From Protonemura montana (taxonomy: Eukaryota; Arthropoda; Insecta; Plecoptera; Nemouridae), in assembly GCA_947568835.1 (NCBI GenBank), contig OX387610.1, forward strand, positions 14,489,001 to 14,553,000: a stretch of DNA of 64,000 nucleotides. The letters run 5' to 3'. A program made the position numbers and the translations under genes. The notes beneath the pieces are model-generated. The model searched no databases. It saw nothing but the letters and a program-made list of their open reading frames with translations, and was not told where the DNA came from. Each line of letters begins with the position of its first letter. Within the stretch, counting starts at the first letter, position 1. Of this stretch, positions 4,440 to 50,070 are shown piece after piece.

Positions 4440-5165
4440 CTGAACGACCGAACTGTCAGGCGTGTTAAAAACACAGGTTCTCATTAGATCCCGAAGTTAA
4501 GCAACACTTTGCTGAGTTAGGTATTGGATGGGTGACCATCATACATATGACCAGTTCTGTTTGGGAGAGAGGTTGGAGGGATGAAAGTTAAGCAACACTG
4601 CGCTGGGTCAGGTATTAGATGGGTGACCATCATACACATGACCAGTTCTGTTCGGGAGAGAGGTTGGAGGGTTGAAAGTTAAGCAACACTGCGCTGGGTT
4701 AGATATTGGATGGGTGGCAATCATACACATGACCAGTTCTGTTCGGGAGAGAGGTTGGAGGGATGAAAGTTAAGCAACACTGCGCTGGGTCAAGTATTGG
4801 ATGGGTGGCAATCATACACATGACCAGTTCTGTTCGGGAGAGAGGTTGGAGAGATGAAAGTTAGTACAGCAACTTCACTCGCCTTGCTTATCAACCTCTC
4901 GACAGCATGGATTTGTGGAGGAATCCTGTTGTTCGCGTTGTACCGTCCTTCGGAAGGGACGTTAAGCCGGTGGTCCCCTTGGTCTTCGACAGGAGTAGGC
5001 TACGTGCCGGCACCGGGTTTCCCTCCTCTCTTCTAGGCTAGGTTAGGTTCATCATCATCCTCATCATCATCCACTAATTCTCCGACGCCATTAGACCAGT
5101 GCCGCATGGCCAGATGTCAAAACAGTGCGTCGTTAAACACCACAAATAATAATAATAATTAACTG
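4440..5165 (+). mobile_element. 5S rRNA-derived SINE-like element, 4 tandem 91-bp units
   Basis: The head at about 4448-4560 matches the 5S rRNA order: GTGTTAAAAACAC, then GGTTCTC, GAAGTTAAGCAAC (A box) and TTGGATGGGTGACC (C box). The A box to spacer segment is repeated about four times, ending GGAGGGATGAAAGTTA. A single-copy body follows (AACTTCACTCGCC..., CCTTCGGAAGGGACGTTAAGCC, GTGCCGGCACCGGG), then CATCATCATCC, GACGCCATTAGACCAGTG and a tail ending GTCGTTAAACACCACAAATAATAATAAT. The 5S homology is established knowledge of SINE3-type elements; the expansion is seen directly. Confidence 0.85.
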
Positions 5166-9008: not shown

Positions 9009-9645
9009 ATATGAACTATGTTTTTAGATGAAATCTTATTTAAATTGCAAAAGATTGCAATGGAAGGGTTTTTTTTTATTATAAACAACGCTATAACCGT
9101 CTCAAAAATTGATGTCTAAACGTGGACTCGAACCCCGATCACCACCTGTCGCGGGTGTTGCTCTAACCAATTGAGCTACTTGGACACTGGCTTTTTGAGA
9201 CAATATTTTGGAGATCCGTCATTCTCATCAAATACACTAAAATCGCCTCAAAAAGCCAGTGTCCAAGTAGCTCAATTGGTTAGAGCAACACCCGTGATAG
9301 GTGAAGATCGGGATCCAAGTAGCTCAATTGTTTAGAGCAACACCCGCGACAGGTGGAGATCGGGGTCCAAGTAGCTCAATTGGTTAGAGCAACACCCGCG
9401 ACAGGTGGAGATCGGAGTCCAAGTAGCTCAATTGGTTAGAGCAACACCCGCGACAGGTGGAGATCGGGGTCCAAGTAGCTCAATTGGTTAGAGCAACACC
9501 CGCGACAGGTGGAGATCGGGGTTCAAGTAGCTCAATTGGTTAGAGCAAAACCCGCGACAGGTGGAGATCGGGGTTCGAGTCCGCGTTTGGGCATCAATTT
9601 TTGAGACGGTTATAGTGTTCATAATAATAAAATGAACTATTTTTA
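9009..9645 (+). mobile_element. Foldback tRNA-derived element: 1 unit (-) and 6 units (+)
   Basis: A left arm (9030-9215, minus sense) has the 3' region and one tRNA-like unit; a right arm (from about 9216, plus sense) has six 52-bp units and ends in a complete T-arm (GGGGTTCGAGTCC) followed by TTTTTGAGACGGTTATAGTG and AATAATAAAA. The flanks carry a probable target-site duplication, ATGAACTAT plus T-run, at about 9011-9025 and 9633-9646, so the inverted pair inserted as one unit. Confidence 0.75.
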
Positions 9646-12461: not shown

Positions 12462-13312
12462 TTGATTTGCGGTGTTTAGCATAGCACTGTTTTGACATCT
12501 GGCCATGCGGCACTGGTCTAATGGCGTCGGTGAATGAGTGGATGATGATGAACCTAACCTAGCCTAAAAGGGAGGAGAGGAAACTCGGTGCCGGTACGTA
12601 GCCTACTCCTGTCGAAGAGCACCAAGGGGACCACCGACTTAACGTCCCTTCCGAAGGACGGTACAACGTGAACAACAGGATTCCTCCACAAATTCATGCT
12701 GTCGAGAGGTTGATAAGCAAGGCGAGTGAAGTTGCTTCACTAACTTTCATCCCTTCAACCTCTCTCCCGAACAGAACTGGTCATGTGTATGATAGTCACC
12801 CATCCAATACCTGATCCAGCGCAGTGTTGCTTAACTTTCATCCCTCCAACCTCTCTCCCGAACAGAACTGGTCATGTGTATGATAGTCACCCATCCAATA
12901 CCTGATCCAGCGCAGTGTTGCTTAACTTGCATCCCTCCAACCTCTCTCCCGAACAGAACTGGTCATGTGTATGATAGTCACCCATCCAATACCTGATCCA
13001 GCGCAGTGTTGCTTAACTTTCATCCCTCCAACCTCTCACCCGAACAGAACTGTTCATGTGTATGATGGTCACCCATCTAATACCTGACTCAGCACAGTGT
13101 TGCTTAACTTTCATCCCTCCAACCTCTCTCCCGAACAGAACTGGTCATGTGTATGATGGTCACCCATCCAATACCTGACCCAGCGCAGTATTGCTTAACT
13201 TTCATCCCTTCAACCTCTCTCCCGAACAGAACTGGTCATGTGTATGATGGTCACCCATCCAATACCTGACCCAGCGCAGTATTGCTTAACTTTCATCCCT
13301 CCAAAATGCTGT
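12462..13312 (-). mobile_element. 5S-derived SINE-like element, 6 tandem 91-bp units
   Basis: In minus sense the order is 5S-type units (about 12780-13310, six copies of the A-box to C-box segment plus spacer), the body with GGAAGGGACGTTAAG, and the tail near 12470 (AAACACCGCAAATC). The proximal 5S head (GTGTTGGAAACACCGG) is missing, so the array is truncated at 13312. Confidence 0.82.
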
Positions 13313-27600: not shown

Positions 27601-28805
27601 CTGAGATCACCGAAGTTAAGCAACACGGCGCTGGGTTAAGTATTGGATGGGTGATCATCATATGACCAGTTCTGTTCGGGAGAGAGGTTGGAGGGATGAA
27701 AGTTAAGCAACACTGCGCTGGGTCAGGTATTGGATGGGTGACCATCATACACATGACCAGTCCTGTTTGGGAGAGAGGTTGGAGGGATGAAAGTTAAGCA
27801 ACACTGCGCTGGGTCAGGTATTGGATGGGTGACTATCATTCACATGACCAGTTCTGTTTGGGAGAGAGGTTGGAGGGATGAAAGTTAAGCAACACTGCGC
27901 TGGGTCAGGTATTGGATGGGTGACCATCATACACATGACCAGTTCTGTTCGGGAGAGAGGTTGGAGGGATGAAAGTTAAGCAACACTGCGCTGAGTCAGG
28001 TATTGGATGGGTGACCATCATACACATGACCAGTTCTGTTCGAGAGAGAGGTTGGAGGGATGAAAGTTAAGCAACACTGCGCTGAGTCAGGTATTGGATG
28101 GGTGACCATCATACACATGACCAGTTCTGTTCGAGAGAGAGGTTGGAGGGATGAAAGTAAAGCAACACTGCGCTGGGTCAGGTATTGGATGGGTGACCAT
28201 CATACACATGACCAGTTCTGTTCGGGAGAGAGATTGGAGTGATGAAAGTTTAGCAACACTGCGCTGGGTCAGGTATTGGATGGGTGACTATCATACACAT
28301 GACCAGTTCTGTTTGGGAGAGAGGTTGGAGTGATGAAAGTTAAGCAACACTGCGCTGGGTCAGGTATTGGATGGGTGACTATCATACACATGACCAGTTC
28401 TGTTCGGGAGAGAGGTTGGAGGGATGAAAGTTAAGCAACACTGCGCTGATTCAGGTATTGGATGGATGACCATCATACACATGACCAGTTCTGTTCGAGA
28501 GAGAGGTTGGAGGGATGTAAGTTAAGCAACACTGCGCTGAGTCAGGTATTGGATGGGTGACCATCATACACATGACCAGTTCTGTTCGAGAGAGAGGTTG
28601 GAGGGATGAAAGTAAAGCAACACTGCGCTGGGTCAGGTATTGGATGGGTGACCATCATACACATGATTAGTTCTGTTCGGAAGAGAGGTTGGAGTGATGA
28701 AAGTTAAGCAACACTGCGCTGTGTCAGGTATTGGATGGGTGACAATCATACACATGACCAGTTCTGTTCGGAAGAGATTGGAGGGATGAAAGTTAGTACA
28801 GCAAC
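27601..28805 (+). mobile_element. 5S-derived array, 13 tandem 91-bp units
   Basis: The longest 5S array in the window: a head fragment (GAGATCACCGAAGTTAAG), then 13 units. Diagnostic variants (GCTGAGTC, TTCGAGAG, GAAAGTAAAG) recur in the same order in units near 27980-28240 and 28440-28690, indicating duplication of multi-unit blocks. It ends GAAAGTTAGTACAGCAACTT without the rest of the body. Confidence 0.88.
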
Positions 28806-31082: not shown

Positions 31083-31627
31083 TCACAGTTTTTAGATTAA
31101 ATCTGATTTAAATTGCAAACGCTTGCAATGCGCGGGGTATTTTATTATTAACAACACTATGACCGTCTCAAAAATTGATGCCCAAACGGGGACTCAAGTA
31201 GTTCAATCGGTTAGAGCAACACCCGCGACAGGTGGAGATCGGGGTCCAAGTAGCTCAATTGGTTAGAGCAACACCCGCGACAGGTGGAGATCGGGGTCCA
31301 AGTAGCTCAATTGGTTAGAGCAACACCCGCGACAGGTGGAGATCGGGGTTCAAGTAGCTCAATTGGTTAGAGCAACACCCGCGACAGGTGGAGATCGGGG
31401 TCCAAGTAGCTCAATGGTTCAGAGCAACACCCGTGACAGGTGGAGATCGGGGTCCAAGTAGCTCAATTGGTTAGAGCAACACCCGCGACAGGTGGAGATC
31501 GGGGTCCAAGTAGCTCAATTGGTTGGAGCAACACCCGCGACAGGTGGAGATCGGGGTTTGAATTCCAGTTTGGGCATCAATTTTTGAGACGTTTCAAGTG
31601 TTCATAATAATAAAAATCACAGTTTTT
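31083..31627 (+). mobile_element. tRNA-derived element with 7 units and 11-bp target duplication
   Basis: TCACAGTTTTT flanks both ends (31083-31093 and 31617-31627). Inside, an inverted copy of the 3' end (TTAAATTGCAAACGCTTGCA, CCGTCTCAAAAATTGATGCC) precedes seven plus-sense 52-bp units and the normal 3' end (TTTTTGAGACGTTTCAAGTG, AATAATAAAAA). The array therefore sits between inverted repeats, within a single insertion. Confidence 0.85.
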
Positions 31628-36032: not shown

Positions 36033-36116
36033 ATTCAAGAGAGTTAAGAGACACTATTTGAACTGGGTTTTGAATGCTAAGTAAAGGGCTACTAAATTTC
36101 CCGACGTTTCGTAACA
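36033..36116 (-). mobile_element. Left arm of interrupted foldback element, with 13-bp TSD
   Basis: ATTCAAGAGAGTT (36033-36045), identical to 43344-43356, is followed by the antisense arm (AACTGGGTTTTGAATGCTAA, CCCGACGTTTCGTAACA). The arm breaks off at 36116 where the Helitron-like dimer begins. Confidence 0.85.
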
Positions 36117-38997
36117 TTAACCTTATATAAAAGCTTTAAAATTGTGATGTTCAACTTTTTAGTTTGTGGGTGGGTGGCTGGGTGGATGGGTGGCTGGGAT
36201 GTAACCGGCCGCTCTACTGGTTATGGAAATTGCGAAATGCCACTCAAAACGTACGGAAATGGGCTAGAATTTTTCAGAATTAACTTTTCCATTGGCAGGC
36301 GACATTTTGACAGCGATTTGAAATCGTTTTCATGGTGAAAAGTTGCTAAATATGACGGCAAGATATCTCAGAGCCAGGCGATACAGCTCGATTTTTAAAA
36401 CTCTTTTTATACCAAAGTTTTTCTAGCCTTGAGCTCCACGGTTATTTTTCATGCATTTGTAATAAAGTTGTTGATGTAATTGAGCAAAAACACATGCAAT
36501 TGCGATCGTTTAACGTGAAAAAGAATTAATTTTGCTAATAAACTGACAGCTTTGATCAATTGTTTGCATTTTTGACACCACGGCAAGGTGTACGAAATCG
36601 TGAATGTATCTTTTCGGCAGTGCATTCAGGAAATTCAAACGTCAAATTTAAACGTCAAAGTCAATGTCAAATTCAATTTCAAAATCTCCAAAACTGAACG
36701 GAAAACGTGTGAAATTGGCTTCTATTGTTCAAATACAGTTTAACATCCTGCTACGTCTTTTTCACGATGATTTAAAAGTGTTTTAGTAAAGTAAAGTATC
36801 AAAAATATTGTTGGTGTTCGGCTAGCAAGATACAAAAGAGTCACTTGATTCATCTCGACATTGCATGGTATTGTATATGATTGTATTATACTGCATGGTA
36901 TTGTATGGTATTTTATTGTTATGTATGGTATTCTTTGGTGTTGGATGTTTTTGGATGGTATTTTATATTATTGTTTGATATTGTATGGTATTCTTTAGTA
37001 TTCGACAGTATTCTATGGTATTCTATGGTATTCTATGGTATTCTATGGTATTCTATGGTGTTCTATGGTGTTCTATGGTGATCTATGGTGTTCTATGGTA
37101 TCCCATGGTATTCTTTGGTATTCTATGGTATTCTATAATATTCTATGAATTTCTATGGTATTGTATGGTATTGTATGGTATTGTATGGTATTCTAAGGTA
37201 TTCTTTGGTATTCTTTGGTGTTCTATGGTGTTCTATGGTGTTCTATGGTATTCTATGGTATTCTATGGTATTCTATAATATTCTATGACGTTCTATGGTA
37301 TTCTATGATATTGTATGGTATTGTATGGTATTGTATGGTATTCTATGGTATTTAATGGTATTCTATGGAGTTATATGGTATTCTATGATATTGTATGGTA
37401 TTCTATGGTCTTCTACGGTATTCTATGGTATTCTATGGTATTCTTTTGTATAATATAATATTATATAGTATTCTATGGTATTCAATGGTATTCTATGGTA
37501 TTTTATAATATTCTTCGGAGTTCTATGGTATTATATGGAGTTAATGGTATTCTATGGTGTTCTATGGTGTTCTATGGTGTTTTATGGTATTTTATTGTGT
37601 TCTTTGGTGTTCTATGGTATACTATGGTATTCTTTGGTGTTCCATGGTGTTCTATAGTATTCTATGGTATTCTATGGTATTCTATTGTGTTCTATGGTAT
37701 TCCATGGAGTTCTATGGTATTCTATGGTATTCTTTAGTATTCTATGGAGTTATATAGTATTCTATTATATACTATGGTATTCTATAGAGTTCTATGGTGT
37801 TCTATGATATTCTATGGTATTCTATGGTCTTCTATGGTATTCTATGGTATTCTATGGTAATCTTTGGTGTTCTATGGTATTCTATGGTGTTCTATGGTAT
37901 TCTAAGGTATTCTATGGTATTCTTTAGTATTCCATGGTATTCTAAGGTATTCTATGGAGTTCTATGGTATTCTTTGATATTGTATGGTATTCTATGGTAT
38001 TCTATGGAATTCTATGATATTGTATGGCATTGTATGGTGTTCTATGGTATTCTATGGTATTCTATGATATTCTACGGTATTCTATGGTATTCTATGGTAT
38101 TTTATGGTATTCTATGGTATTATTTGGTATTCTATGGTAATCCATGGTATTCTATGGTATTCTTTGGTATTCTAAGGTATTCTTTGGTATTCTATGGTGT
38201 TATTTGGTATTCTATGGTATTCTTTGATATTGTATGGTGTTCTATGGTATTCTATGGAATTCTATGATATTGTATGGCATTGTGTGGTATTCTATGGTAT
38301 TCTATGGTATTCTTTGATATTGTATGGTATTATATGGTATTCTTTGGAATTTTATGATATTGTATGGTATTCTATGGTATTCTATGGTATTTTATTGTAT
38401 TGTATTGTATTCTATGGTATTGTATGGTATTGTTCGGTTTTGTTTGGAAGTGTATGGTATTAAATGTTTTTGGATGGTATTCTATGAAATTTTATGGGCT
38501 TCTTTGATATAATATGTTTCTTTATGGTATTTTAAAGTATTCGATAGTATTATTTGGTATCCTATGATGTTGTATGGAATGGTATGGTATTCCATATGTT
38601 CCTATGGGGTATTATATTATTTTATGGTAGTTTTTGGTATCCTCTGGTATTTTATGACTTTCAATAGATTTCTATTGTATAAGAAGATACTTTATGGTGT
38701 TGTTAGGAAATGAATGGTATTCGATGATACAGTTTGGTATTTTTAGGTATTCTATTGTATTGTATGGTATTCTAGGTCCCATTTGGTATTGTATGATATT
38801 GTGTGGTATTTAATGGGTTTGTTTGGTTTTTTATGGCATTTTATGGTATTGTATTGTATTGAATGGAATTTTATGGTTTTCTTAGGGTTTCTTTGGTATT
38901 GAATGGTTTTCTATCAAAGAAAACTCGAGACACGTTTAAACCAAAATTCCCACTCCCTCAAAATCGTAAGGTGCCGTTAGGCATCGGGTACTGCTAG
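36117..38997 (+). mobile_element. Helitron-like element, monomer 1, carrying 10-bp satellite
   Basis: Starts TTAACCTTATATAAAAGC and ends GGGTACTGCTAG. The first ~735 bp is unique-type sequence shared with monomer 2 (GGGATGTAACCGGCCGCTCT, GACGGCAAGATATCTCAGAG). A 10-bp repeat (TATTCTATGG, about 200 degenerate copies, 36870-38920) follows, then an 80-bp 3' region (CTCGAGACACGTTTAAACC). Near the 3' end TGCC-GTTA-GGCA can form a stem-loop 10-11 nt before CTAG, and insertion is between A and T; these are Helitron traits. The 5' end is TT rather than the usual TC, and no Rep/helicase is present, so it would be non-autonomous. Confidence 0.7.
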
Positions 38998-41900
38998 TTA
39001 ACCTTATATAAAAGCTTTAAAATGCAATGTTCAACTTTTTAGTTTGTGGGTGGCTGGCTGGCTGGCTGGGTGGGTGGCTGGGATGTAACCGGCCGCTCTA
39101 CTGTTTATAGAAATTGCGAAATTCGACTAAAAACGTACGGAAATGGGCTAGAATTTTTCAGAATTAACTTTTACATTGGCGTGCGACATTTTCACAGCGA
39201 TTACAAATCGTTTTCATGGTGAAAAGTTGCTAAATATGACGGCAAGATATCTCAGAGCCAGGCGATGCAGCTCGATTTTATAACTATTTGAATACTCAAG
39301 TTTTTCTAGCCTCGAGCTTTGCGGTGATTTTTCATGCATTCGTAATAAAGTTGTTGATGTAATTGAGCGAAAACACATTCAATTGCGATCGTTTTACGTG
39401 AAAAAGAATTAATTTTGCTAATAAACTGACAGCTTTGATCAATTGTTTGCTTTTTTGACACCACGGCAAGGTGTACGAAATCGTGAATGTATCTTCTCAG
39501 CAGTGGATTATCAGGCCAAATTAAACGTCAAATTCAAACGTCAAAGTCAACGTCAATGTCAAATTATTTTCGAAATGTCCAGATCTGAAGGAAAAACGTG
39601 TGAAATTGGCTTCTATTGTTCAAATACAGTTTTACATCCCGCTACGTCACGGTGATTTTAAAGTGCATTATTATTATTATAGTAAAGTATCAAAAATATT
39701 GTTGGTGTCTTGGCTAGCAAGATGAAAAATAGCCACTTGACAAGCCCGTGGAATTCTTGTGGAGGTTATTTACACGTCAAAAAGGTTTGGAAAGTTAAAA
39801 AATCTAAGAAATTTCTTAAAATACGACGATTTTTTTCCATCCCTAGCCTAGACAAGATCACACAGTTGATTCCAAGCTATCAATGATATTTGTGACAATT
39901 ATGTAAATCAATAGCAATCCTAACTTTCTATGCAGGTCTTTAAGACATTAAATAGGGTTTTCAAACAAACAAAACATACTTTATTAGTTTTTTATTGATG
40001 ATTTTGCTAAAACTAGATTTAGAGTGACATTGACAGATCAAAGATAAACATTTGACAGATATCTTTCATCGAATCAGGACGCCGTGGATATTAATTTTAT
40101 TTTCGAGGAAGCCGTGATCATTCAACAGGTATTTAAATTCAAAACGTCATAAATGACAGAGTGCAGTTTTATCAAATCTAATCCAAATACGCAATCTAAG
40201 TTTAATATAGTTTTATATGGAATTGTATAATATTGTATAGTACTTTATAGTGTTATATGGTAGTCTATGTTATTCCATGGTATTCTATGGTATTCTATGG
40301 TATTCTATGGTATTCTATGGTATTCTATGGTATTCTATGGTATTCTTTGGAGTTCTATAGTATTCTTTGATATTGTATGGTATACTATGGTTTTCTATGG
40401 TATACTATGGTATTCTATGGTATTCTATGGTATTCTATTGAGTTCTATGGTATTCTACGATATTGTATGGTATTCTATGGTATTCTATGGTATTCTATGG
40501 AGTTATATGGTATTCTATGGTATTCTATAGTATTCTATGGAATTATATGGTATTCTATGGTATTCTATGGTATTCTTTGGTATTCTATGGTATTTTATGG
40601 TATTCTATGGTATTCTATGGAGTTATATAGTATTTTATGGTATTCTTTGGAGTTATATGGTATTCTATAGTATGCTATGGTCTTCTTTGGTATTCTATGG
40701 TGTTCTATGGTATTCTTTGGTATTCTATGGAGTTTAATGGTATTCAATGGTATTCTATGGTATTTTTTGTATTTTATGGTATTTTTATGGTATTCAATGA
40801 AATTCTATGGTGTTCTATGGTATTCTATGGTATTCTTTGGTATATACATTGATATTCTATGGTATTCTATGGTATTTTATGGTATTGTATGGGGTTCTGT
40901 GGTATTCTATGGTATTGTTTGGTATTCTATGGTGTTCTCTGGTATTGTATGGAGTTCAATGGTATTCTATGATATTGTATGGTATACTATAGTATTCTAT
41001 GGTAAACTATGGTATTCTATGGTATTCTATTGAGTTCTATGGTATTCTACGATATTGCATGGTATTCTTTGGTATTCTATAGTATTTTATGATATTCAAT
41101 GGAATTCTATGGTATTCCTTGGTATTCTATGATATTTTGTGGTCTTCTATGGTATGCTATGGTATTCTATGGAGTGCTATGGTATTCTATGATATTCTAT
41201 GGTATTCTATGGTATTTTATGGTATTTTATGGTATTCTATGGTATTTGATGGTATTCGATTGTATTCTATGGTATTCTATGGTATTCTATGGTATTCTAT
41301 GGTATGCTATGGTATTCTATAGAGAGCCATGGTATTCTATGATATTCTATGGTATCCTATGGTATTCTATGGTATTCTATGGTTTACTATGGTATTCTTT
41401 GGTATTCTATGGTATTCAATGGAATTCTATGGAGTGCTATGGTATTCTATGATATTCTATGGTACTCGATGGTATTCGATGGTATTCTATGGTATTCTAT
41501 GGTATTCTATGATATTCTATTGTATTCTATGGTATTCTATGGTATTATATGGTATTCTATGGTATTCTATGGTATTCTATGGAATGCTATGGTATTATAT
41601 GATATTCTATGGTATCCTGTGGTATTCTATGGTATTGTTTGGTATTCTATGGTATTCTTTGATATTCTATGGTATTCAATGGAATTCTATGGAGTGCTAT
41701 GGTATTCTATGATATTCTATGGTATTCTATGGTATTCTATGGTATTTTATGGTATTTTATGGTATTCTATGGTATTCTTTGGTATTCTATTGTATTCTAG
41801 GGTATTCTATGGTATTCTATGGTTTTCTATGATATGCTGTGGTATTCTATGGAGTGCCATTGTATTCTATGGTATCCTATGGTATTCTATGGTATTGTTT

Positions 41901-43014
41901 GGTATTGTTTGGTATTCTATGGTATTCTATGGTATTCTATGGTTTTCTATGATATGCTGTGGTATTCTATGGAGTGCCATTGTATTCTATGGTATCCTAT
42001 GGTATTCTATGGTATTGTTTGGTATTGTTTGGTATTCTATGATATTCTATGGTATTCTATGGTATTCTATGGTATTTTATGGTATTCTATGGTATTCTTT
42101 GGTATTCTATTGTATTCTAGGGTATTCTATGGTATTCTATGGTATTCTATGATATGCTGTGGTATTCTATGGAGTGCCATTGTATTCTATGGTATTCTAT
42201 GGTATTCTATGGTATTGTTTGGTATTCTATGGTGTTCTATGATATTCTATGATATTGTTTGGTATTCTATGGTATTCTATGGAGTTCTATGATATACTAT
42301 GGTATTTTATGGTATTCTATGGTATTTTATGGTATTCTAGGGTATTCTATGGTATTCTATGGTATTGTATGGTATAGTTTGGTTTTGTTTGGGAGTGTAT
42401 GGTATTAAATGTTTTTGGATGGTATTCTATAAAATTTTATGGATTTCTTTGATATAAGATGGTTCTCCATGGTATTTGCAGGTATTCGATAGTATTATTT
42501 GGTATTCTTTGATGTTCCTATGGGTTTATTTATTATTTTATGGTATTGTTTGGTATCCTCTGGTATTTTTTTAGTTTCAATGGATTTCTATGGTATTATA
42601 AGATACTTTATGGTGTTGTTAGGAATTGAATGGTATTTGATGATATAGTTTCGCATTTTTATGTATTCTATGGTATTGTATGGTATTGTATGGTATTCCA
42701 GGTACTCATTGGTATTGTATGATATTGTGTCGTATTTTATGGGTTTGTTTGGTATTATATGGGTTGGTTTGGTATTCTATGGCATTTGATGGTATTGTAT
42801 TGAATGGAATTTTATATTTTTCTTAGGGTTTCTTTGGTATTGAATGGTTTTCTAAGGTATTTTATGATATTCTATGGTATTGTATGGTATTGCATGGCTG
42901 TGGTCCTTTTAAGAGGCTTTGGATAGGGCATCAAAGAAAACTCGAGACACGTTTAAACCAAAATGCCCACACCCTCAAAATCGTAAGGTGCCGTTAGGCA
43001 GCGGGTACTGCTAG
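38998..43014 (+). mobile_element. Helitron-like element, monomer 2, head-to-tail
   Basis: Begins TTAACCTTATATAAAAGC directly after the CTAG of monomer 1 and ends GGGTACTGCTAG at 43014. The 5' ~740 bp (38998-39740) is collinear with monomer 1 with scattered differences. About 460 bp at 39745-40205 has no counterpart in monomer 1. The 10-bp array (40210-42905) is longer, with a 120-bp higher-order repeat at 41821-42060. The 3' stem-loop is retained (GCC-GTTA-GGC). Confidence 0.7.
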
Positions 43015-43356
43015 TATACTAGTTACTTCTTCAAGGGTAAGAACAGTCCTGACAATTTTCCAATAACAAAAGAACCACACAAAATTATAACAATTACCTA
43101 TGTTTGTTCTTATTATTATTATTATTATAATTGTGTATTATGTTTGTTATTAAGTATGTTTCTATGTTTTTGTATCGGAAAATTGTCAGGACTGCTCATA
43201 CCCTTGAAGAAGTAACTAGTATATGTTGCGAAACGTCGGGAAATTTAGTAGCCCTTTACTTAGCATTCAAAACCCAGTTGAAATAGTTTTTGTTAAAACT
43301 AGTGCTAAGGATAAATCAAGTAGACATGAGTCTAAAAACCATTATTCAAGAGAGTT
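43015..43356 (+). mobile_element. Right part of interrupted foldback element, with TSD
   Basis: Resumes the left arm (TATACTAGTTACTTCTTCAA), passes the loop (about 43095-43160), then gives the complete sense arm (GAAGTAACTAGTATATGTTG, TTTAGTAGCCCTTTACTTAG, AAGTAGACATGAGTCTAAAA). It ends AACCATT followed by ATTCAAGAGAGTT. The sense arm preserves the uninterrupted insertion site. Confidence 0.85.
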
Positions 43357-48916: not shown

Positions 48917-50070
48917 ACGCCCATGTTGTATTAGGATTAAATCTCATTTAAATTGCAAACTCTTGCAATGCGCGGGATATTTTATTATTATGAACCCTAA
49001 AACCGTCTTAAAAATTGATGCCTAAACGGGGACTCATACCCCGATCTCCACCTGTCGCGGGTGTTGCTCTAACCAATTGAGCTACTTGGACCCCGATCTC
49101 CACCTGTCGCGGGTGTTGTTCTAACCAATTGAGCTACTTGGACCCCGATCTCCACCTGTCGCGGGTGTTGCTCTAACCAATTGAGCTACTTGAACCCCGA
49201 TCTCCACCTGTCGCGGGTGTTGCTCTAACCAATTGAGCTATTTGGACCCCGATCTCCAACTGTCACGGGTGTTGCTCTAACCAATTGAGCTACTTGGACC
49301 CCGATCTCCACCTGTCGCGGGTGTTGCTCTAACCAATTGAGCTACTTTGACCCCGATCTCCACCTGTCACGGGTGTTGCTCCAACCAATTGAGCTACTTG
49401 GACCCCGATCTCCACCTGTCACGGGTGTTGCTCTAACCAATTGAGCTACTTGTTGAGATTTTGATGAGAATGACAGATCTCCAAGGAGTAGAACCAAGAG
49501 GCTGTGAATACTCACAGTCACTCTGATTCTAGTGACGCTATATCACGTCACAACCTGTCAATCTCCTGTAACTACAATTTGACGTTGGATTCGTTGCTAT
49601 ATTTAGTTGAAATCTTATTTAAATTGCAAACTCCTTGGAGATCCGTCATTCTCATCAAATACACTAGAATCGTCTCAAAAAGGCAGTGTCCAAATAGCTC
49701 AATTGGTTAGAGCAACACCTGCGACAGGTGGAGATCGGGGTCCAAGTAGCTCAATTGGTTAGAGCAACACCCGCGATAGGTGGAGATCGGGGTCCAAGTA
49801 GCTCAATGGTTCAGAGCAACACCCGCGACAGGTGGAGTTCGGGGTCCAAGTAGCTCAATTGGTTAGAGCAACACCCGCGACAGATGGAGATCGGGGTCCA
49901 AGTAGCTCAATTGGTTAGAGCAACACCCTCGATAGATGGAGATCGGGGTCCAAGTAGCTCAATTGGTTAGAGCAACACCCGCGACAGATGGAGATCGGGG
50001 TTTGAGTCCCCGTTTGGGCATCAATTTTTGAGACGGTTATAGTGTTGATAATAATAAAATTACGCCCATG
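48917..50070. mobile_element. Giant foldback tRNA-derived element: 8 units (-) facing 6 units (+)
   Basis: ACGCCCATG occurs at both ends (48917-48925 and 50062-50070) next to the two family 3' ends (TTAAATTGCAAACTCTTGCA on the left; AATAATAAAAT on the right). Inside are eight minus-sense 52-bp units (49030-49450), a central 5' body (hairpins CTGTGA/TCACAG, GTGACG/CGTCAC), then six plus-sense units (49690-50010) ending in a complete B box (GGGGTTTGAGTCCCC). One pair of target duplications around both arrays shows a single insertion of about 1.13 kb. Confidence 0.85.

Follow-up and report, generated by a model that had tools for sequence, protein, structure and literature searches.

Mixed head-to-tail arrays of a Helitron-like family in Protonemura montana probably grow by insertion at existing element ends

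In the genome of Protonemura montana, insertion at existing element ends probably builds mixed head-to-tail arrays of a Helitron-like family by accretion. Exact joints between units, an A|T insertion at one host site, element ends shared between units, independence of neighbouring units, and one pair consisting of a filled and an unfilled joint were observed directly. Throughout, the window denotes the stretch of 64,000 nucleotides that was analysed (GenBank assembly GCA_947568835.1, contig OX387610.1, positions 14,489,001 to 14,553,000 of the forward strand), and the genome searched comprises 258 Mb in 34 contigs.

Results

Two different units abut exactly in one host site

A first-pass annotation of the window had described a head-to-tail dimer of a CTAG-ending element, and its account of the bases was borne out. 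Specifically, two units abut at 38997/38998 with no base between them, and both start TTAACCTTATATAAAAGC and end GGGTACTGCTAG (5'-TTAACC...CTAG-3'). The features are as follows.

36117..38997, plus strand: unit 1, non-autonomous and probably the younger, 2881 bp (ends and length; compared with the copy at C2:28278307, a single mismatch over 2881 aligned bases plus one 10-bp indel)
38998..43014, plus strand: unit 2, non-autonomous and probably the older, 4017 bp (ends and length; last 1.4 kb compared with the nearest copies found)
38970..39015, plus strand: head-to-tail joint, the 28-base 3' end of unit 1 followed directly by the 18-base head of unit 2
36117..36848, plus strand: head region of unit 1 that is common to unit 2 (88.4% identity with unit 2), the first ~550 bp of which are also present in an autonomous-type element (91.3%)
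38998..39740, plus strand: head region of unit 2 (BLAST), the first ~550 bp of which are also present in the autonomous-type element (92.8%)
36895..38914, plus strand: 10-bp satellite (ATGGTATTCT) of unit 1 (Tandem Repeats Finder)
39740..40215, plus strand: block private to unit 2 and absent from unit 1 (BLAST; best other genomic matches 98%)
40216..42891, plus strand: 10/20-bp satellite of unit 2 (Tandem Repeats Finder)
42987..43014, plus strand: 3' end of unit 2, comprising CTAG and, by sequence, a hairpin (conserved 28-base end)
36044..36116, plus strand: left host flank, a host repeat, with the final A of the A|T target (aligned to the opposite arm)
43015..43110, plus strand: right host flank with the initial T of the A|T target (aligned to the opposite arm)
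43144..43296, minus strand: opposite arm of the host foldback, a paralogous unfilled site (alignment to the joined flanks)

By BLAST in the window, which contains no other head or tail of this kind, the two heads are 88.4% identical over 752 aligned columns and the two tails 96.5% over 85. The units therefore differ by ~12% at the head, and also by 1.1 kb in length and by the block at 39740-40215; a plain dimer of one element was rejected because head identity is only 88%.

The joined flanks align with the opposite arm of the host foldback at 135 of 153 positions, with a T/C mismatch near the insertion site and no indel at the insertion point. Additionally, 40 genomic copies of the unfilled 140-base site were scored, the best 40 of 1348 first-look candidates. 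The top copy covers 135 of the 140 bases at 98% identity with equal length in query and target, and most of the 40 cover about 135; the equal lengths argue against an insert or a duplication. Because the joined flanks match both the opposite arm and the genomic unfilled copies, the pair sits in an A|T site without target duplication, as had been proposed. A 1-bp T duplication is formally possible, the first T being ambiguous by one base, and was rejected since A|T without duplication is simpler. Target-site duplications, or ends other than TTAACC and CTAG, had been named in advance as grounds against the description; at the one site tested there is no duplication, and the ends coincide with TTAACC and CTAG.

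The host foldback (36044-36116, 43015-43296) is itself a high-copy repeat, as the 1348 candidates for its joined site indicate. The window also carries, by Tandem Repeats Finder, many separate arrays of a 91-bp unit (e.g. 4494-4863, 12741-13304, 27613-28795) and of a 52-bp unit (e.g. 9261-9574, 31187-31557, 49038-49452), which we take to resemble part of 5S rRNA and the 5' half of a tRNA, respectively.

Shared ends and the A|T target across the genome

The 28-base 3' end has 884 genomic matches at up to 2 mismatches, far above chance given that the reversed control has 0. Its last 18 bases occur exactly 1158 times and are followed by T in 1152 cases and by another base in 6, a count that includes joints, where the head itself begins with T. 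Both results support the assignment of a Helitron-like, CTAG-ending element. The stem-loop GCC-GTTA-GGC, earlier placed 10-11 nt before CTAG, is present by sequence and ends 11 nt upstream, and its predicted folding (-5.3 kcal/mol, z -1.57, 16 of 200 shuffles equally good) is only modestly better than that of shuffles.

A pattern barring G at -1 and C at -11 found 225 heads. Among the 100 of these that were listed, the base before TTAACC is A in 99 and T in 1; four of the 99 are joint remnants, in which CTGCTA or ATGCTA precedes the head, and two are nested heads; with these six set aside, the base is A in 93 of 94. As the pattern excluded G at -1, the frequency of a host G before heads cannot be read from this count. 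The 5' TT is present in both window units and in the listed heads and joints, which were searched with TT.

Some joints lack the last G of the left unit, so that CTGCTA or ATGCTA directly precedes TTAACC (L007, L032, L033 and L034; C4:71798, C4:621832, C4:23713637 and C4:23717339). At C1:282869, C4:685865 and L027, a head is nested 11 bp within another head (TTAACCTTATA|TTAACC), and these cases look as if the inner head had been inserted at A|T inside an older one.

An autonomous-type relative encodes a Helraiser-like Rep-helicase

The first-pass annotation had suggested a search for an autonomous relative with the same ends, and one was found. With the Helitron_like_N profile, 150 of 207 candidates were scored as matches, the open frames listed for them ranging from 797 to 2061 aa. 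One match, at C2:28273045, lies in a unit of ~10 kb bounded by joints at C2:28268312 and 28278306, with no further joint in the parts examined (all but 28269812-28271899). The first 557 bp of this unit are 91.3% identical to unit 1 and 92.8% to unit 2, and over its last 29 bp it is identical to unit 1 and one base different from unit 2. Its 5' region also carries sequence matching the satellite of the window units; a reading of the satellite, earlier noted as unusual cargo, as peculiar to those units was accordingly dropped.

The Rep-helicase frame of the C2 unit is open over the 1530 residues examined, up to a stop at 28276492. By eye it contains HVIEFQKRGLPHAHIL and KYLCKYVYKG, which we take to be motifs of an HUH Rep domain with its Tyr motif. 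It matches PF14214 (E 1e-61), PIF1 (E 3.7e-57) and, over 913 residues, Helraiser (PDB 7lcc; E 3.6e-246). When the last 530 residues of this one copy were scanned against Pfam at E up to 0.1, the families listed were of helicase and AAA type only, with no C-terminal endonuclease domain. Of all 150 scored matches, 78 are located on contigs C7 and C8 (0.93 and 0.89 Mb), and others cluster near ends of C2, C4, C5, C11, C12 and C15.

Because the ~10-kb relative has its head and its last 29 bp in common with the window units and codes for a Helraiser-like Rep-helicase, the family is placed, on sequence features, in the Helitron superfamily. In particular, an autonomous member carries a Rep domain and a Pif1-type helicase; unfilled sites, T after 3' ends and A before heads all point to A|T insertion without target duplication; and the 3' end is of the CTRR type (CTAG). 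The hairpin before it is present by sequence but only modestly better than shuffles in predicted folding (z -1.57). The start is non-canonical, TT in place of the 5' TC of canonical Helitrons (Helitron1). The target is A|T and not the T-rich or TT target of Helentrons and HINEs, and membership in the Helentrons was rejected on this target together with the C-terminal scan of one copy, in which no endonuclease was found. Judging from the shared ends, the ~10-kb relative probably moves units 1 and 2.

Neighbouring units examined are mostly of independent origin

Allowing up to 2 mismatches in its 30-base core, the head-to-tail joint occurs 678 times genome-wide (reversed control, 0), spread over many contigs among the first 100 listed. 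Exact-match searches, which damaged examples could escape, found 0 tail-to-tail joints within 30 bp and 0 head-to-head joints within 12 bp. Across 30 loci from the search with the 28-base 3' end, taken in contig order (L061-L090), a head follows 21 of the 36 distinct 3' ends, and DNA starting with T follows the remaining 15. By a rough estimate, about a thousand existing ends would hardly ever be struck if insertion used AT steps at random.

The contexts of 59 distinct joints, each with 400 bp upstream and 500 bp downstream, were compared. In 33 pairs the left side is at least 99% identical and the right side less than 97%, in 31 pairs the reverse holds, and in 7 both sides are alike; in a further 11 (4 and 7), the other side is at 97-99%. 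In 28 of the 33 pairs the first difference comes no more than 61 bases from the joint, in 30 of the 31 no more than 93, and in the remaining 6 (5 and 1) it lies 166-263 bases away; these pairs are not independent of one another, and the conserved ends set a floor for the distance of the first difference.

Adjacent short units were compared among 19 units, a small sample. At all four loci with two complete units, each of the eight units is closer to a unit elsewhere than to its neighbour, some margins being only 0.3-0.4 points. Percent identities are as follows.

L061: to neighbour 96.1; best elsewhere 97.0 and 98.4
L062: to neighbour 94.4; best elsewhere 98.4 and 94.8
L073: to neighbour 97.1; best elsewhere 97.4 and 99.7
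L083: to neighbour 94.3; best elsewhere 97.8 and 96.9

Unit 1 itself recurs beside other partners. In addition to the copy on C2, it is present at C8:881849, where the first ~1.8 kb has a single mismatch and the last ~0.3 kb compared has none, the middle ~0.7 kb lying outside the comparison. Its left neighbour is host DNA in the window. On C2 this place is taken by an autonomous-type tail, and on C8 by a satellite tail ~20% different from window unit 2; the heads to its right at the three loci show 23 to 31 differences from one another in about 496 bases. Two further loci with head matches of the 100% class, L003 and L005, were rejected as copies of unit 1, as they diverge after about 0.5 kb.

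Unit 2 is more diverged. Its last 1.4 kb shows 16-18 differences in 1340 and 120 gap columns against the nearest copies, which come from the best 40 candidates scored, so that closer relatives may exist; its private block is about 2% from the best other genomic matches. Provided that the nearest copies were found, unit 1 is probably younger than unit 2 by divergence. Since it is also nearly unchanged at its C2 and C8 loci, where both neighbours are different, unit 1 most likely arrived in the window alone and inserted at the 5' end of unit 2; on this reconstruction of the order of events, it probably used the canonical A|T formed by the host A and the first T of unit 2.

These comparisons bear on rolling-circle concatemers, in which one event lays several copies, or a composite block is copied as Rep reads past an inner 3' end. 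Such an origin would account for exact joints of uniform polarity, and the accessible part of the Helraiser study describes precise end-to-end junctions made by that element (PMC5876387). It would lead one to expect sister units side by side, which are found neither in the window pair nor among the eight units at the four loci. The first-pass annotation had ascribed the window junction to rolling-circle transfer of a dimer; with heads just 88% alike and unit 1 set among different neighbours in three places, this ascription was not borne out. An array that bears on the question differently is one on C2, half of which (L096, C2:6433950-6438150) shows a higher-order repeat of Helitron units of ~1.08 and 1.05 kb in the order A-B-A, where the A units are 99.4% alike and A and B 96.3-96.5%. 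This near-identity of the A units shows that copying of several units as one block also occurs, and it is compatible with concatemers of a pair. As a general source of the joints, concatemers are nevertheless unlikely.

A joint filled on C8 is unfilled on C7

Contigs C7 and C8 were compared at one joint. From the RepHel match to a head, termed H, the interval is 4716 on C7 and 8264 on C8. The difference of 3548 predicted a joint and the next head at C8:424307, and the 1-kb sequence retrieved there showed the joint exactly at this position. The 3548-bp extra stretch thus sits at a C8 joint that is unfilled on C7. The 593 bp to the left of the C8 joint show no mismatch against C7, and H differs at 3 of 1859 positions between the two contigs, and between the head of the insert and H there are 25 differences in 400. 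The insert, examined over about 0.4 kb at its start and 1.5 kb at its end, with the middle ~1.6 kb outside, may comprise two or more units.

This difference between the contigs is explained by an insertion into the joint or else by precise loss from C7; the insertion reading requires a G|T target in place of the usual A|T. This is one pair only, and C7 and C8 may be alleles or duplicates. Crossing-over between two heads was rejected for it, as it should leave a mixed head and none is seen.

The same pair, and the joint contexts that break on either side, would look alike if arrays swapped whole units at CTAG|TTAACC through Rep-mediated exchange, with no new transposition. This would leave unexplained the exact outer ends of the window pair in the host A|T site, and no such activity was found in the accessible portions of the literature searched; we regard exchange as improbable. 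The arrays could also stem from plain tandem duplication, from unequal crossing-over or from similar copies having been joined in the assembly. This origin is more doubtful still: it could draw on the near-identical pieces shared by C7 and C8, on the A-B-A array and on the joints being read here from the assembly, yet the breaks cluster at element ends instead of in heads more than 90% alike or in satellites, where homology is longest, joints are present on many contigs (first 100 listed), and the outer ends of the window pair make an exact A|T insertion.

Discussion

We propose that arrays of this family grow by insertion at existing ends. In the window, unit 2 would first have entered the host repeat between A and T without target duplication, and unit 1 would then have landed on its 5' end. 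Elsewhere, insertion at existing ends and at CTAG|TTAACC joints would let mixed arrays grow by accretion. A joint would read like the junction of a transposon circle, and Rep would nick each end in any case, so that existing ends may serve as preferred, orientation-fixing targets, with end-nicking as the presumed attractant. Whether this amounts to a strategy is evenly balanced in our judgement: a self-targeting Helitron relative, its transposase preferring existing ends or joints in one fixed orientation, might build large mixed arrays as a safe haven. No description of such a strategy for Helitrons was found in the literature searched.

Among known systems, Helraiser/Helibat resembles the Protonemura family in its Rep-helicase (homology over 913 residues), its CTAG 3' end with a hairpin (here a candidate by sequence), its A|T insertion without duplication, and the precise end-to-end junctions made by Helraiser. 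The authors suggested that circles with such junctions are preferred substrates (PMC5876387, in part). Unlike the Protonemura family, which starts TT, Helraiser starts TC, and the accessible part of that paper describes no large mixed arrays in which neighbours are independent. Proto-Helentron-Pi of Phytophthora infestans shares 5'-TT, 3'-CTAG and A|T insertion with no target duplication, but according to the portion available its Rep-helicase groups with Helentrons (PMC4067079); the transposase here was compared to PDB only (Helraiser).

Adjacent head-to-tail Helitrons with exact joints of CTAG to the 5' end are known from maize and bat (PMC2267711, citing the bat cases; available in part). 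At maize r1, one exact joint of two different Helitrons was taken as the result of consecutive insertions, their order being unclear; that single case in the accessible text compares with 678 joints and a filled/unfilled joint pair here. FoHeli of Fusarium likewise shows self-insertion and joined ends, but has Helitron2-type ends, and the available part of its description gives a few nested or tandem cases (PMC5148889). HINE/DINE elements are also non-autonomous rolling-circle elements with central tandem repeats (PMC4067079; PMC7492417, both in part), but have a T-rich/TT target and subterminal inverted repeats, in contrast to A|T here. New insertions of wheat Helitrons prefer AT, and insertion at element ends is not mentioned in the part of that paper available (PMC13286980). 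Taken together, the literature searched, much of it accessible in part, contains tandem and self-inserted Helitrons, none at such a scale or with a filled/unfilled joint; as most subscription papers lay outside the search, this is weak evidence of novelty. The scale of the joints, the independence of neighbours and the filled/unfilled joint look new.

Whether head-to-tail Helitrons stem from one multimer or from repeated insertion has, as far as the accessible text of the relevant papers goes, been argued from few cases (PMC2267711; PMC5876387). This one genome has joints in the hundreds, many copies of the Rep-helicase with long frames and a filled/unfilled pair, so that counting can decide the matter. 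Should insertion indeed be drawn to existing ends, the family would be a eukaryotic rolling-circle transposon with a built-in target preference, which would bear on the formation of arrays and satellites.
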